Positions 24,746 through 51,805 of a stretch of 64,000 nucleotides of DNA are shown one piece after another (position 1 is the first letter of the stretch; each line of letters starts with the position of its first letter). The stretch lies in NCBI RefSeq assembly GCF_015351235.1, contig NZ_JADKSJ010000001.1, forward strand, positions 124,001 through 188,000. Direction: 5' to 3'. The notes under the pieces are model-generated. The model made no database searches. It saw only the letters and a program-made list of their open reading frames with translations, and was not told the DNA's origin. The translations under genes were made by a program, and so were the position numbers. This DNA is from Plantibacter sp. VKM Ac-2880 (GTDB lineage Bacteria > Actinomycetota > Actinomycetes > Actinomycetales > Microbacteriaceae).

Positions 24746-24754
24746 TTATCCACA
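24746..24754. promoter_or_regulatory. DnaA box (consensus) upstream of parA
   Basis: TTATCCACA, a perfect consensus 9-mer, about 200 bp upstream of the parA start. A second perfect box is at 25068-25076. Confidence 0.6.
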
Positions 24755-25067: not shown

Positions 25068-25076
25068 TTATCCACA
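25068..25076. promoter_or_regulatory. DnaA box (consensus) in parA-rsmG region
   Basis: TTATCCACA, preceded by TGTCCACA, giving a closely spaced pair of box-like sites. Confidence 0.6.
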
Positions 25077-25136
25077 GTCAGCAGGTGCGGCAGGTGTGAT
25101 GGATCATCACGAGTGTCGCGTGCATTCTGCGCCAGT

Positions 25137-25150
25137 GTTTCACGTGGAAC
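25137..25150. other. Near-parS site (one mismatch)
   Basis: GTTTCACGTGGAAC, one base away from the palindrome. Confidence 0.7.
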
Positions 25151-25362
25151 ATTGCACTACTCGGCCATCCGACACGGCATCAGCACGACCGCCGCAGCGC
25201 CGGTGGGTTTCCTTGCGCGAATGGCGCTTCTTATGAGGACCAATGCGGCCCACTCATCATGAGTGGTGTCCTGACACAACTGAGAGACCGCCGGAAGGAG
25301 CAAGCGCCTGGAGGGCCGGAGCAGAACCGTGCCAGGTACGCGGCCCGTATCGCCACACCAGT

Positions 25363-32088: not shown

Positions 32089-32363
32089 TGTCCACATTCC
32101 ACCGTCTCAGCCCTGTGGATAACCTGTGGAGAGATGTGGAAGCATCGGACCGCCTTGTGAGTGAACATCATTCACCGGCGATCGAGTCCCACACACCCGC
32201 TGCACTCTCTCCACAGGCCGCCACCAAGTTACACACATGTAGTTCCCTGTGTTCGAGCGGGTTCGAGCGACTTATCCACAGTTTCCACACCGGTTAAGAC
32301 TGTTAACCGTTAATTCAATGATCTCTCCGCCAAACAACCTTTCCCCAGGCTCGCTTCTCCACA
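32089..32363. other. oriC: Chromosomal origin oriC (DnaA-box array between dnaA and dnaN)
   Basis: The region holds two perfect boxes, TGTGGATAA (32114-32122) and TTATCCACA (32272-32280), plus variants TGTCCACAT (32089), TGTGGAGAG (32125), CTCTCCACA (32207), GTTTCCACA (32281) and TTCTCCACA (32355). Next to them is an A+T-rich stretch with GTTAAGACTGTTAACCGTTA (from about 32293), the probable unwinding element. This is the standard place of oriC in actinobacteria. Confidence 0.88.
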
Positions 32364-50351: not shown

Positions 50352-51188
50352 GTGACCCTGCCCCGGGATCCGTCGGCCAACGTCTGCTATCGCCACCCAG
50401 ACCGTCAGAGCTTCGTGCTCTGCCAGCGCTGCGGTCGGACGATCTGCGGCGAATGCCAGACGCCCGGGGCAGTCGGTTTCATCTGCCCTGAGGACATGAA
50501 GGCGCAACGCCAGAGCGCTCCGCGCAACCGGATCGGCGCGAGGATCAGCAACTCCTCCCCGATCGTCACCTACGCGATCATCGCCGTCACGGCGTTCGTG
50601 TTCCTGCTGCAATGGATTCCTGGGCTCGGCGTCACCAACGCGCTGCTGTACGCAGGCGTGTATTCGGACCCCGCCTACGGAGCGTTCCAGCCCTGGCGGA
50701 TGCTCACCGCGGTCTTCGTGCACTCGCAGGGGTTCATCTTCCACATCCTGCTGAACATGTACACGCTCTGGATCTTCGGCCGGATCCTCGAGACCATGCT
50801 CGGACACTGGCGATTCCTGGCGCTGTACCTCGTCGCCGGGTTCGCCGGCTCGCTCGGCGTCCTGTTCCTCTCCGCCCCGCAGACTGCCGTCGTCGGTGCG
50901 TCCGGAGCGATCTTCGGCCTGCTCGGTGCCTTCCTCGTCATCCAACGACGGATGGGGGCGGACACCCGCGGTCTCCTGGTGCTCCTCGGCATCAACCTCG
51001 TGATCGGGTTCATTCCTGGCGTGAACATCGCCTGGCAGGCCCACCTGGGCGGCCTCATCGGTGGCGCGCTCATCGGCCTCATCCTCGTCAACACCCGGAA
51101 GCGCACGCAGCAGCCCCTCCAGGTGATCCTCATCGGCGCCGTCAGCGTCCTGCTGGTCGGCGCGAGCCTGGTCCCCGCGCTGGTCTGA
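50352..51188 (+). CDS. Rhomboid-family intramembrane serine protease with N-terminal zinc-finger motif
   Basis: The 278-aa protein has a B-box-like Cys/His cluster at the start (CYRHPDRQSFVLCQRCGRTI followed by CGECQ, about 9-33), then the rhomboid core of six membrane helices, with the catalytic Ser in VVGASGAIFGLLGA and the catalytic His in AWQAHLGGLIGG. It cleaves membrane proteins inside the bilayer; substrates are unknown. The start is GTG 50352. It is 21 bp after ppiA, so the two are likely co-transcribed. Confidence 0.9.
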   Translation: MTLPRDPSANVCYRHPDRQSFVLCQRCGRTICGECQTPGAVGFICPEDMKAQRQSAPRNRIGARISNSSPIVTYAIIAVTAFVFLLQWIPGLGVTNALLYAGVYSDPAYGAFQPWRMLTAVFVHSQGFIFHILLNMYTLWIFGRILETMLGHWRFLALYLVAGFAGSLGVLFLSAPQTAVVGASGAIFGLLGAFLVIQRRMGADTRGLLVLLGINLVIGFIPGVNIAWQAHLGGLIGGALIGLILVNTRKRTQQPLQVILIGAVSVLLVGASLVPALV

Positions 51189-51351: not shown

Positions 51352-51478
51352 TTATCCACAGAGTTATGAACATTGGGGATAATTACACGGTTGTCATTCC
51401 CCGTGTTTCCGGGGGCCTCAGGAGTTCTCCACAGCACGGTGTGGATAACCGGGAAGTTCTCCACATTCCTGTGGAGAA
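51352..51478. promoter_or_regulatory. DnaA-box cluster between rhomboid gene and crgA
   Basis: Two perfect boxes, TTATCCACA (51352-51360) and TGTGGATAA (51440-51448), and three single-mismatch boxes, TTCTCCACA (51425-51433 and 51457-51465) and TGTGGAGAA (51470-51478), fall within 127 bp. The clustered array is oriC-like in density. Confidence 0.75.
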
Positions 51479-51507: not shown

Positions 51508-51538
51508 ACAGCGGGCCGTCCGAAGGACGACCCGCTGT
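51508..51538 (-). terminator. crgA terminator hairpin
   Basis: ACAGCGGGCCGTCC pairs with GGACGACCCGCTGT (13 of 14) with a GAA loop, just beyond the crgA stop on the minus strand; TTTCGTGTG follows on that strand. Confidence 0.65.
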
Positions 51539-51559: not shown

Positions 51560-51805
51560 CTAGCGCCACCTGGTGGTCATGAGGAACCCGATGAAGGCGA
51601 TGCCGAAACCGACGAGGATGTTCCACGGCCCGAGGGACTGCACCGGCAGCAGCGTGCCGCTCAGGTAGTAGACGACGATCCAGGCCAGGCCGAGGAGCAT
51701 GAACCCGAACATGACCGGCTTGAACCAGACGGCGTTCGGAGCGGGCTCGCCGCTGCGCTGCTCGGGTTCGCGGGACGGTTTGGTGCGTGCCTTCGTGCGT
51801 GCCAT
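51560..51805 (-). CDS. crgA: Cell division protein CrgA
   Basis: The 81-aa protein has a basic N-terminus (ARTKARTKPSREP), two membrane helices and the CrgA pattern NAVWFKPVMFGFMLLGLAWIVVYYLSG, ending GFGIAFIGFLMTTRWR. CrgA recruits division and wall-synthesis proteins (FtsZ, FtsI, PbpA in mycobacteria) to the septum. It stands between the rhomboid and sortase genes as in other actinobacteria. Confidence 0.95.
   Translation of the reverse strand: MARTKARTKPSREPEQRSGEPAPNAVWFKPVMFGFMLLGLAWIVVYYLSGTLLPVQSLGPWNILVGFGIAFIGFLMTTRWR

Follow-up and report, generated by a model that had tools for sequence, protein, structure and literature searches.

Why a dense cluster of DnaA boxes should stand beside crgA, outside the replication origin, is the question raised by a stretch of 64,000 nucleotides from Plantibacter sp. 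VKM Ac-2880 (Microbacteriaceae; contig NZ_JADKSJ010000001.1, positions 124,001 to 188,000), the whole of which is called the window here and supplies the coordinates below unless another source is given. The initial annotation proposed that the cluster titrates DnaA like datA, reactivates it like a DnaA-reactivating sequence (DARS), links replication timing to the division genes around crgA, or is a relic of a second origin. Initiation timing in Actinobacteria is poorly known. Our comparison of the sequence with that of relatives and with published work suggests that the DnaA boxes are joined to an operator-like dyad of the division regulator McdR, and that the element is probably a non-coding locus that regulates DnaA with input from McdR, whichever way it works.

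The core of the element begins with a perfect DnaA box (TTATCCACA; box 1, the outer box, 51352–51360, plus strand), followed by a degenerate DnaA-box-like site with two mismatches, read from the sequence (TTATGAACA; 51364–51372, plus strand), and by box 3, which has one mismatch (TTATCCCCA on the minus strand; 51374–51382). Box 3 overlaps by 2 bp the strandless dyad AATTACACGGTTGTCATT at 51381–51398, a perfect match to the consensus AATNACANNNNTGTNATT; this dyad and its overlap with box 3 are absent from the initial annotation. Four accessory boxes follow, one perfect (51440–51448, minus strand) and three with one mismatch (TTCTCCACA; 51425–51433, plus strand; 51457–51465, plus strand; 51470–51478, minus strand), the last two being the left and right arms of an inverted pair. 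The strand readings of the six boxes confirm that both orientations are present, and the two perfect boxes were counted correctly before, whereas the one-mismatch boxes number four instead of three.

Chance clustering of the boxes was ruled out in three ways, by shuffles of the window, by a genome-wide count and by random placement. Shuffled versions of the whole window gave on average 2.55 DnaA boxes with at most one mismatch (standard deviation 1.47, maximum 6), whereas the real sequence has 17. Sites of the form TTMTCCACA occur 31 times in the 4.03-Mb genome, five of them inside the 127 bp of 51352–51478, and when 31 sites were placed at random over 4.03 Mb in 20,000 trials, the maximum per 127 bp was two; the genome-wide count proposed in the initial annotation thus puts the cluster beyond chance. 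By the same definition the dnaA-dnaN gap has three boxes (at 32114, 32272 and 32355), about 19 kb from the array, which is therefore denser than the origin and not merely about as dense, as had been stated.

The element is strongly conserved in relatives. Among the best 80 of 319 confirmed CrgA loci, mostly named Microbacteriaceae and headed by another Plantibacter (CrgA identity 95%), at least one box with at most one mismatch lies within 600 bp 3′ of crgA in 79, and box density is 207 in 48.6 kb there versus 42 in 591 kb elsewhere in these loci. The rhomboid-crgA gap of relatives thus keeps the boxes, and the lack of conservation that had been named as fatal to a DnaA-related role is not what is seen. 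When the gaps were aligned on the first box, a common core of about 50 bp emerged, consisting of GTTATCCACAGG, the middle box-like site, TGGGGATAA and the dyad ATTACAC-NN-GTGTAAT. The dyad (at most two mismatches) is found in 77 of the 80 loci, perfect in 37, versus three times in the remaining 589 kb; two loci (L011 and L053) are without it, and one (L078) was left unscored, its dyad being too close to where the locus sequence stops.

The consensus of the dyad, drawn from crgA loci before the motif was known to us, is letter for letter the published motif of McdR. This protein (Rv1830, also called ResR) is reported to be an essential mycobacterial regulator of the MerR family with whiB2 as a known target, whose binding at AATnACAnnnnTGTnATT needs both halves and the length, not the letters, of the 4-nt spacer (PMC9040748). 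The window dyad is a perfect match to this motif with a 4-nt spacer and the sole perfect copy in the genome. Across 80 genomes, 63 perfect dyads were counted, in 44 of the genomes, and none with the reversed-pattern control. Thirty of these loci were read (L242–L271); six lie beside crgA and six upstream of whiB2-like genes. DnaA boxes occur within 150 bp in five of the six crgA loci versus none of the 24 others. The motif and the required spacer length are thus the same as in the whiB2 promoter described in PMC9040748, but there the operator is part of a promoter, whereas in the window it adjoins DnaA boxes in a gap on which the two neighbouring genes converge. The remaining 18 of the 30 loci are at none of crgA, whiB2, nrdE and nrdI, and may be further McdR targets.

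A likely McdR ortholog is encoded in the Plantibacter genome by a 182-amino-acid open reading frame (ORF) with a MerR_1 domain, which adjoins both FtsR, whose NF050798 match is above cut-off, and an FHA ORF that resembles OdhI but scored below its cut-off. No curated McdR model matched, so that the naming of the protein is based on similarity, gene position and the motif; a search of solved structures with the protein returned one distant match. The BFN gene, sought as a guide to mcdR, is absent from this genome. Clear McdR orthologs are present in 78 of 80 genomes, the Plantibacter genome included, with 58–77% identity in the others; the exceptions are G007 and G023, and the match in G051 is partial.

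Several further copies of the dyad were noted. In the same genome a near-consensus copy (C2 300993–301008; L101 2994–3009) has no DnaA box visible beside it and immediately precedes a WhiB gene (PF02467); the label WhiB2/WhmD is our own reading of this gene, and the site matches the published McdR target, outside mycobacteria. Upstream of nrdH/nrdI/nrdE (C1 ~1490560–1490730; L100 2559–2730), DnaA-box-like sequences are followed by a dyad of this type (TTACAGCCCTGTAGTT on the other strand); NrdE and NrdI of a class Ib ribonucleotide reductase were confirmed at this locus, which may be a second joint DnaA/McdR site. A weaker, strandless copy with two mismatches sits inside the dnaA-dnaN gap, that is, in oriC (32227–32244), and G106, a genome of the same family, also has such a copy upstream of dnaN. 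The dyad was rejected as a general oriC feature, being found (at most two mismatches) in only 6 of 40 stretches upstream of dnaN (from 40 of 46 genomes, three stretches shortened by contig ends). A box-plus-dyad pattern with one extra spacer base matched 4 of 120 genomes and was uninformative; two of its matches (L182 and L186; G443 C17 294669 and 298258) lie 3.6 kb apart in one relative.

The reach of the element was followed through the class and the phylum. An early, strict pattern matched 24 of 394 genomes (12 of the same family, 11 of f27 and one of f44; reversed control, 0); in the loci read, a rhomboid gene is present in 19 of 19 and crgA stands beside the element in 18, the nineteenth locus being shorter and ending before crgA. 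Because this pattern was too strict for other families, CrgA itself was used for the class survey, which covered 80 of 104 chosen genomes; two had no CrgA match, leaving 78 loci in 46 families with up to 2.5 kb of sequence 3′ of crgA, some of it shortened by contig ends. Boxes lie within 700 bp of crgA in 62 of the 78 loci (136 in 52.9 kb versus 45 in 163.7 kb), and the dyad within 450 bp in 53 (57 matches in 34 kb versus 6 in 184 kb). A strict composite, which requires two or more boxes in the 38 bp upstream of the dyad and may lie at any place in the retrieved sequence, was identified in 48 of 78 loci and 31 of 46 families, compared with none in reversed sequence and a mean of 0.0 in 50 shuffles that preserve base composition only; these figures count loci and should not be read as numbers of independent events. 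Nine loci score for the composite in the reverse direction as well, as can happen with a palindromic dyad that has boxes on either side.

A looser composite pattern, applied to the phylum, matched 23 of 396 genomes (control, 0), 13 of 38 in the same class and 10 of 358 in other classes, and crgA stands beside the element in 18 of the 20 loci returned. Seven of the returned loci are from other classes; crgA was recognized in five of them with weak E-values (about 1e-3 to 2e-5, in a small search), once (L275) with the element on its 5′ side, and was undetected in L276 and L277. Three further matches from other classes were not among the returned loci. As far as this pattern can see, the element would be scattered at most outside the class.

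The geometry of the composite is closely kept. Measured from the start of the dyad, box 1 lies at −33 to −29 (peak −31) in 47 of the 48 loci, the middle box at −22 to −17 (inverted at about −21 in 20 loci, direct at about −19 in 19) and box 3 at −9 to −6 (peak −8) in 32; the corresponding positions in Plantibacter are −29, −17 and −7. Since box 3 and the dyad overlap by 2 bp in the window, DnaA bound to box 3 would be expected to contact, or to be incompatible with, a protein bound to the dyad. Of the 48 dyads, 42 are no more than 150 bp, and 45 no more than 450 bp, from the crgA stop codon. In three genomes (G002 and G281 of f2, and G047) the composite stands 1.6–1.8 kb from crgA with long open frames between, and its geometry is kept. 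For this reason the McdR operator offers a better explanation than crgA or the kinase genes for the link to division that the initial annotation suspected. In the two f2 loci (L112 and L114) the boxes and dyad lie about 0.3 kb or less from the end of the rhomboid match; the third distant locus is L143 (G047). Distances from crgA to dnaN were available for 37 of 46 genomes (five were excluded for having the two on different contigs and four were outside the 78 loci); crgA is within 60 kb of dnaN in 31 of the 37, with a median of 22 kb.

Published work on mycobacteria describes a site at the same place. Five regions were highly enriched in vitro with the Mycobacterium tuberculosis DnaA protein, among them the one between Rv0010c and Rv0011c (crgA), and the homologous gap of M. 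smegmatis was bound by DnaA in chromatin immunoprecipitation sequencing (Hicks et al., 2020, PMC7738170). An oriC distinct from this bound site is present as well. According to these authors the site has no obvious correspondence in other species; they settled on no function, with titration and nucleotide exchange mentioned as candidates, and reported recurrent variation in clinical isolates, mostly inside a palindrome (PMC7738170). Variants of the site lengthen cells, as dnaA variants do, and the paper likens the latter to hypomorphic alleles (PMC7738170). The Plantibacter element and this site share the 3′ end of crgA near oriC, a DnaA-box cluster and a palindrome within it; we infer that the palindrome of the clinical variants is the McdR dyad. 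The paper differs in reading the palindrome as two DnaA-box-like sequences, and its text draws no link to McdR (PMC7738170). The composite itself is carried by several f11 genomes (e.g., G003). We take f11 to include mycobacteria, judging by gene content and order. The Plantibacter site is likely the counterpart of this known but unexplained DnaA site. The earlier statement that no role had been described at this place is therefore not quite right, because the mycobacterial counterpart has been published as a DnaA site, and it stands only insofar as the function there was left open.

Whether McdR is indeed the protein that reads the dyad was weighed against the proposal that another regulator, such as a HigA2-like repressor or MtrA/GlnR, whose half-sites are partly alike, owns it and that the nearness of the boxes does not make a joint switch. 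In a later paper, HigA2 is reported to recognize an ATCAC-N-GTGAT palindrome at the Rv0010c-Rv0011c site in vitro, and Rv0010c to rise in the absence of HigA2, and the McdR dyad contains a palindrome of this type when its variable bases are C and G. The published MtrA motif, a degenerate direct repeat, has partly similar letters, and three families (f24–f26, below) have McdR yet no perfect dyad. The exact identity of the blindly drawn consensus with the McdR motif, the same dyad upstream of whiB2-like genes, including the near copy in Plantibacter, the presence of McdR in nearly all genomes and the fixed spacing of boxes and dyad argue for McdR, and ownership by another regulator is considered improbable. 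MtrA, considered for its partly similar half-sites, was dropped once the exact McdR motif was found, and FtsR was rejected since its published motif differs.

The element can be compared with the well-described DnaA-box loci of Escherichia coli. Like datA, as presented in a review (PMC5742627), it is a non-coding cluster of DnaA boxes combined with the site of a second protein near oriC; at datA, however, the essential boxes all point in one direction and the partner is IHF, whereas core boxes 1 and 3 are opposed here and the partner motif is that of McdR. The distance of 19 kb to oriC in the window agrees with datA. The DARS core is made of three boxes, with box I opposite to boxes II and III, and DARS1 and DARS2 may resemble the element, by box orientation, in having a three-box core with one inverted box plus partner sites (the full triplet is seen in 22 of the 48 composite loci, and the middle box is degenerate in the window), while the partners at DARS2 are IHF and Fis instead of McdR (PMC5742627). 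The same review cites box clusters of this general kind in Streptomyces coelicolor and Bacillus subtilis, which lie outside oriC and repress initiation at the wrong time (PMC5742627). The Plantibacter site belongs to this known kind, the DnaA-box locus outside oriC. One of the S. coelicolor clusters, H69, may be the crgA-side site, and we take the two f26 genomes, which have boxes and no dyad at crgA, to be Streptomyces.

How such a locus would act on DnaA can be proposed in two ways. The simplest mechanism is holding on the boxes and release by McdR. DnaA would load on the phased boxes and stay bound, or be inactivated, at a short distance from oriC. Through its dyad, which overlaps box 3, McdR would compete with the bound DnaA and free it, and would thereby push DnaA to initiation while repressing division genes such as whiB2. 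Overexpression of McdR in M. smegmatis is reported to repress division genes and to raise origin-proximal copy number. Since excess McdR raises origin copy number and a disturbed palindrome resembles weaker DnaA, McdR may be supposed to act in favour of DnaA. The element would be copied soon after initiation, and we propose that its dosage would consequently damp a second start. This holding or titration mechanism is put forward tentatively as the leading candidate and ranked above DARS-like reactivation, in which the boxes would assemble ADP-DnaA, McdR would serve as IHF and Fis do at E. coli DARS2, and ATP-DnaA and initiation would be raised. The full triplet with one opposed box, present in 22 of the 48 composite loci (box 1 against 2 and 3 in 13, box 3 against 1 and 2 in 9), recalls the DARS core (PMC5742627), and the rise in origin-proximal copy number with excess McdR and the lengthening of cells by variants of the mycobacterial site, similar to that by hypomorph-likened dnaA variants (PMC7738170), are in line with reactivation as well. 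The middle box is degenerate in the window, though, and the position close to oriC is more datA-like, so that we regard reactivation as unlikely. With a McdR helper it predicts the same signs as holding and differs in the outcome of removing the whole element; the position near oriC (median 22 kb) fits holding, and the opposed boxes fit the DARS core better. The earlier ideas of titration, reactivation and a link to division are partly supported by box conservation and by the published DnaA binding in mycobacteria.

A role in transcription was also considered. DnaA and McdR might regulate a promoter or block transcripts, be it readthrough from crgA or the rhomboid gene, an Rv0010c-like neighbour or an unseen small RNA, so that gene output follows the cell cycle. 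The dyad is close to the crgA stop codon in most composite loci, McdR and DnaA are both reported as transcription factors elsewhere, and the mycobacterial site is upstream of Rv0010c, the gene that rises on deletion of higA2. In the window, however, the element lies between convergent genes, as gene calls and domain matches agree with the initial annotation in showing: the rhomboid gene (PF01694) occupies 50352–51188 on the plus strand, and crgA (PF06781) occupies 51560–51805 on the minus strand, with its 3′ end towards the element. An inverted repeat at 51509–51537, strandless and recognized by eye only, looks like a terminator stem for crgA. The rhomboid gene is on the far strand in 54 of the 78 class loci and is not always adjacent, the composite persists far from crgA in the three genomes named above, and dnaA variants leave expression of both genes flanking the mycobacterial site unchanged (PMC7738170). 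No Rfam family comes near its gathering score, and the small ORFs of the gap are poorly kept. Regulation of transcription as the main function is accordingly thought improbable. A structured RNA was rejected on the single sub-threshold Rfam match (12 bits versus a cut-off of 90), and a hidden gene was rejected as well: three small ORFs match over most of their length in two Plantibacter loci, the 102-amino-acid ORF on the minus strand also has loose matches (32–40%) in a few other loci, and other matches are mostly short pieces over the element or crgA.

A second or relic replication origin would account for a box density above that of the dnaA-dnaN gap, for the AT-rich core (43% GC over 60 bp) and for the weak skew minimum of the window near the array. 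The dnaA-dnaN gap keeps its own boxes, however, the mycobacterial counterpart is bound beside a separate oriC, and skew over 400 kb wanders and reaches its minimum near contig position 263 kb, away from both the array and the dnaA-dnaN gap; because it wanders, skew neither supports nor excludes a second origin. The idea of a relic origin thus found no positive support beyond box density and the AT-rich core and is considered very improbable. Descent from a plasmid was dismissed, as the element had no match in a plasmid collection.

Several observations weigh against a McdR-controlled DnaA locus as the general explanation. The strict composite is absent from 30 of the 78 class loci, and only 10 of 358 genomes outside the class match the composite pattern. 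All five f24 loci and both f26 loci have boxes and McdR but no dyad at crgA, and the perfect dyad occurs nowhere in five f24, three f25 and two f26 genomes, so McdR may read another motif there; absence of McdR as the cause of dyad loss was ruled out, since McdR is present in families without the dyad. Closeness to oriC is only a trend, the composite being found in 20 of 31 near and two of six far genomes (p = 0.20); the association of closeness has p = 0.17 with the dyad and p = 0.035 with the boxes. In mycobacteria the site is upstream of Rv0010c, so a promoter role is possible there (PMC7738170), and the dyad may be read by further proteins as well, given that HigA2 binds a palindrome overlapping it in vitro at the counterpart site. 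The initiation rate was unchanged in the published mycobacterial dnaA variants (PMC7738170). Furthermore, the main text of the paper on DNA immunoprecipitation sequencing with McdR names neither DnaA, crgA nor the crgA-gap site, with two of its five peaks unnamed in the text, and the main text of a second McdR paper is without crgA, Rv0010c, Rv0011c, oriC and DnaA, and reports that McdR tolerates some mismatches.

The mycobacterial DnaA site, its function open, was known already (PMC7738170); the class-wide breadth, the fixed geometry and the joining of a McdR operator to DnaA boxes are new. In the openly licensed literature, the lines of work on DnaA and on ResR/McdR were not found joined, and the papers naming both treat them apart. 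The element is a small, exact and widely shared target that names both likely proteins, and it offers an explanation for a mycobacterial DnaA site of unassigned function in which clinical isolates vary recurrently. It may be a place where Actinobacteria tie DNA replication to cell division. More speculatively, it could be a cell-cycle switch, an old DNA element whose overlapping sites let DnaA and McdR/ResR exclude or recruit each other, with initiation and division both set by one decision; such a switch would be widespread in the class and scattered in other classes of the phylum, and the mycobacterial DnaA site would be one case of a general actinobacterial counterpart of datA or DARS.

Elsewhere in the window, a near-consensus parS-like sequence (TGTTTCACGTGGAACA; 25136–25151) is separated by about 60 bp from a perfect DnaA box (25068–25076), and another perfect DnaA box is found at 24746.
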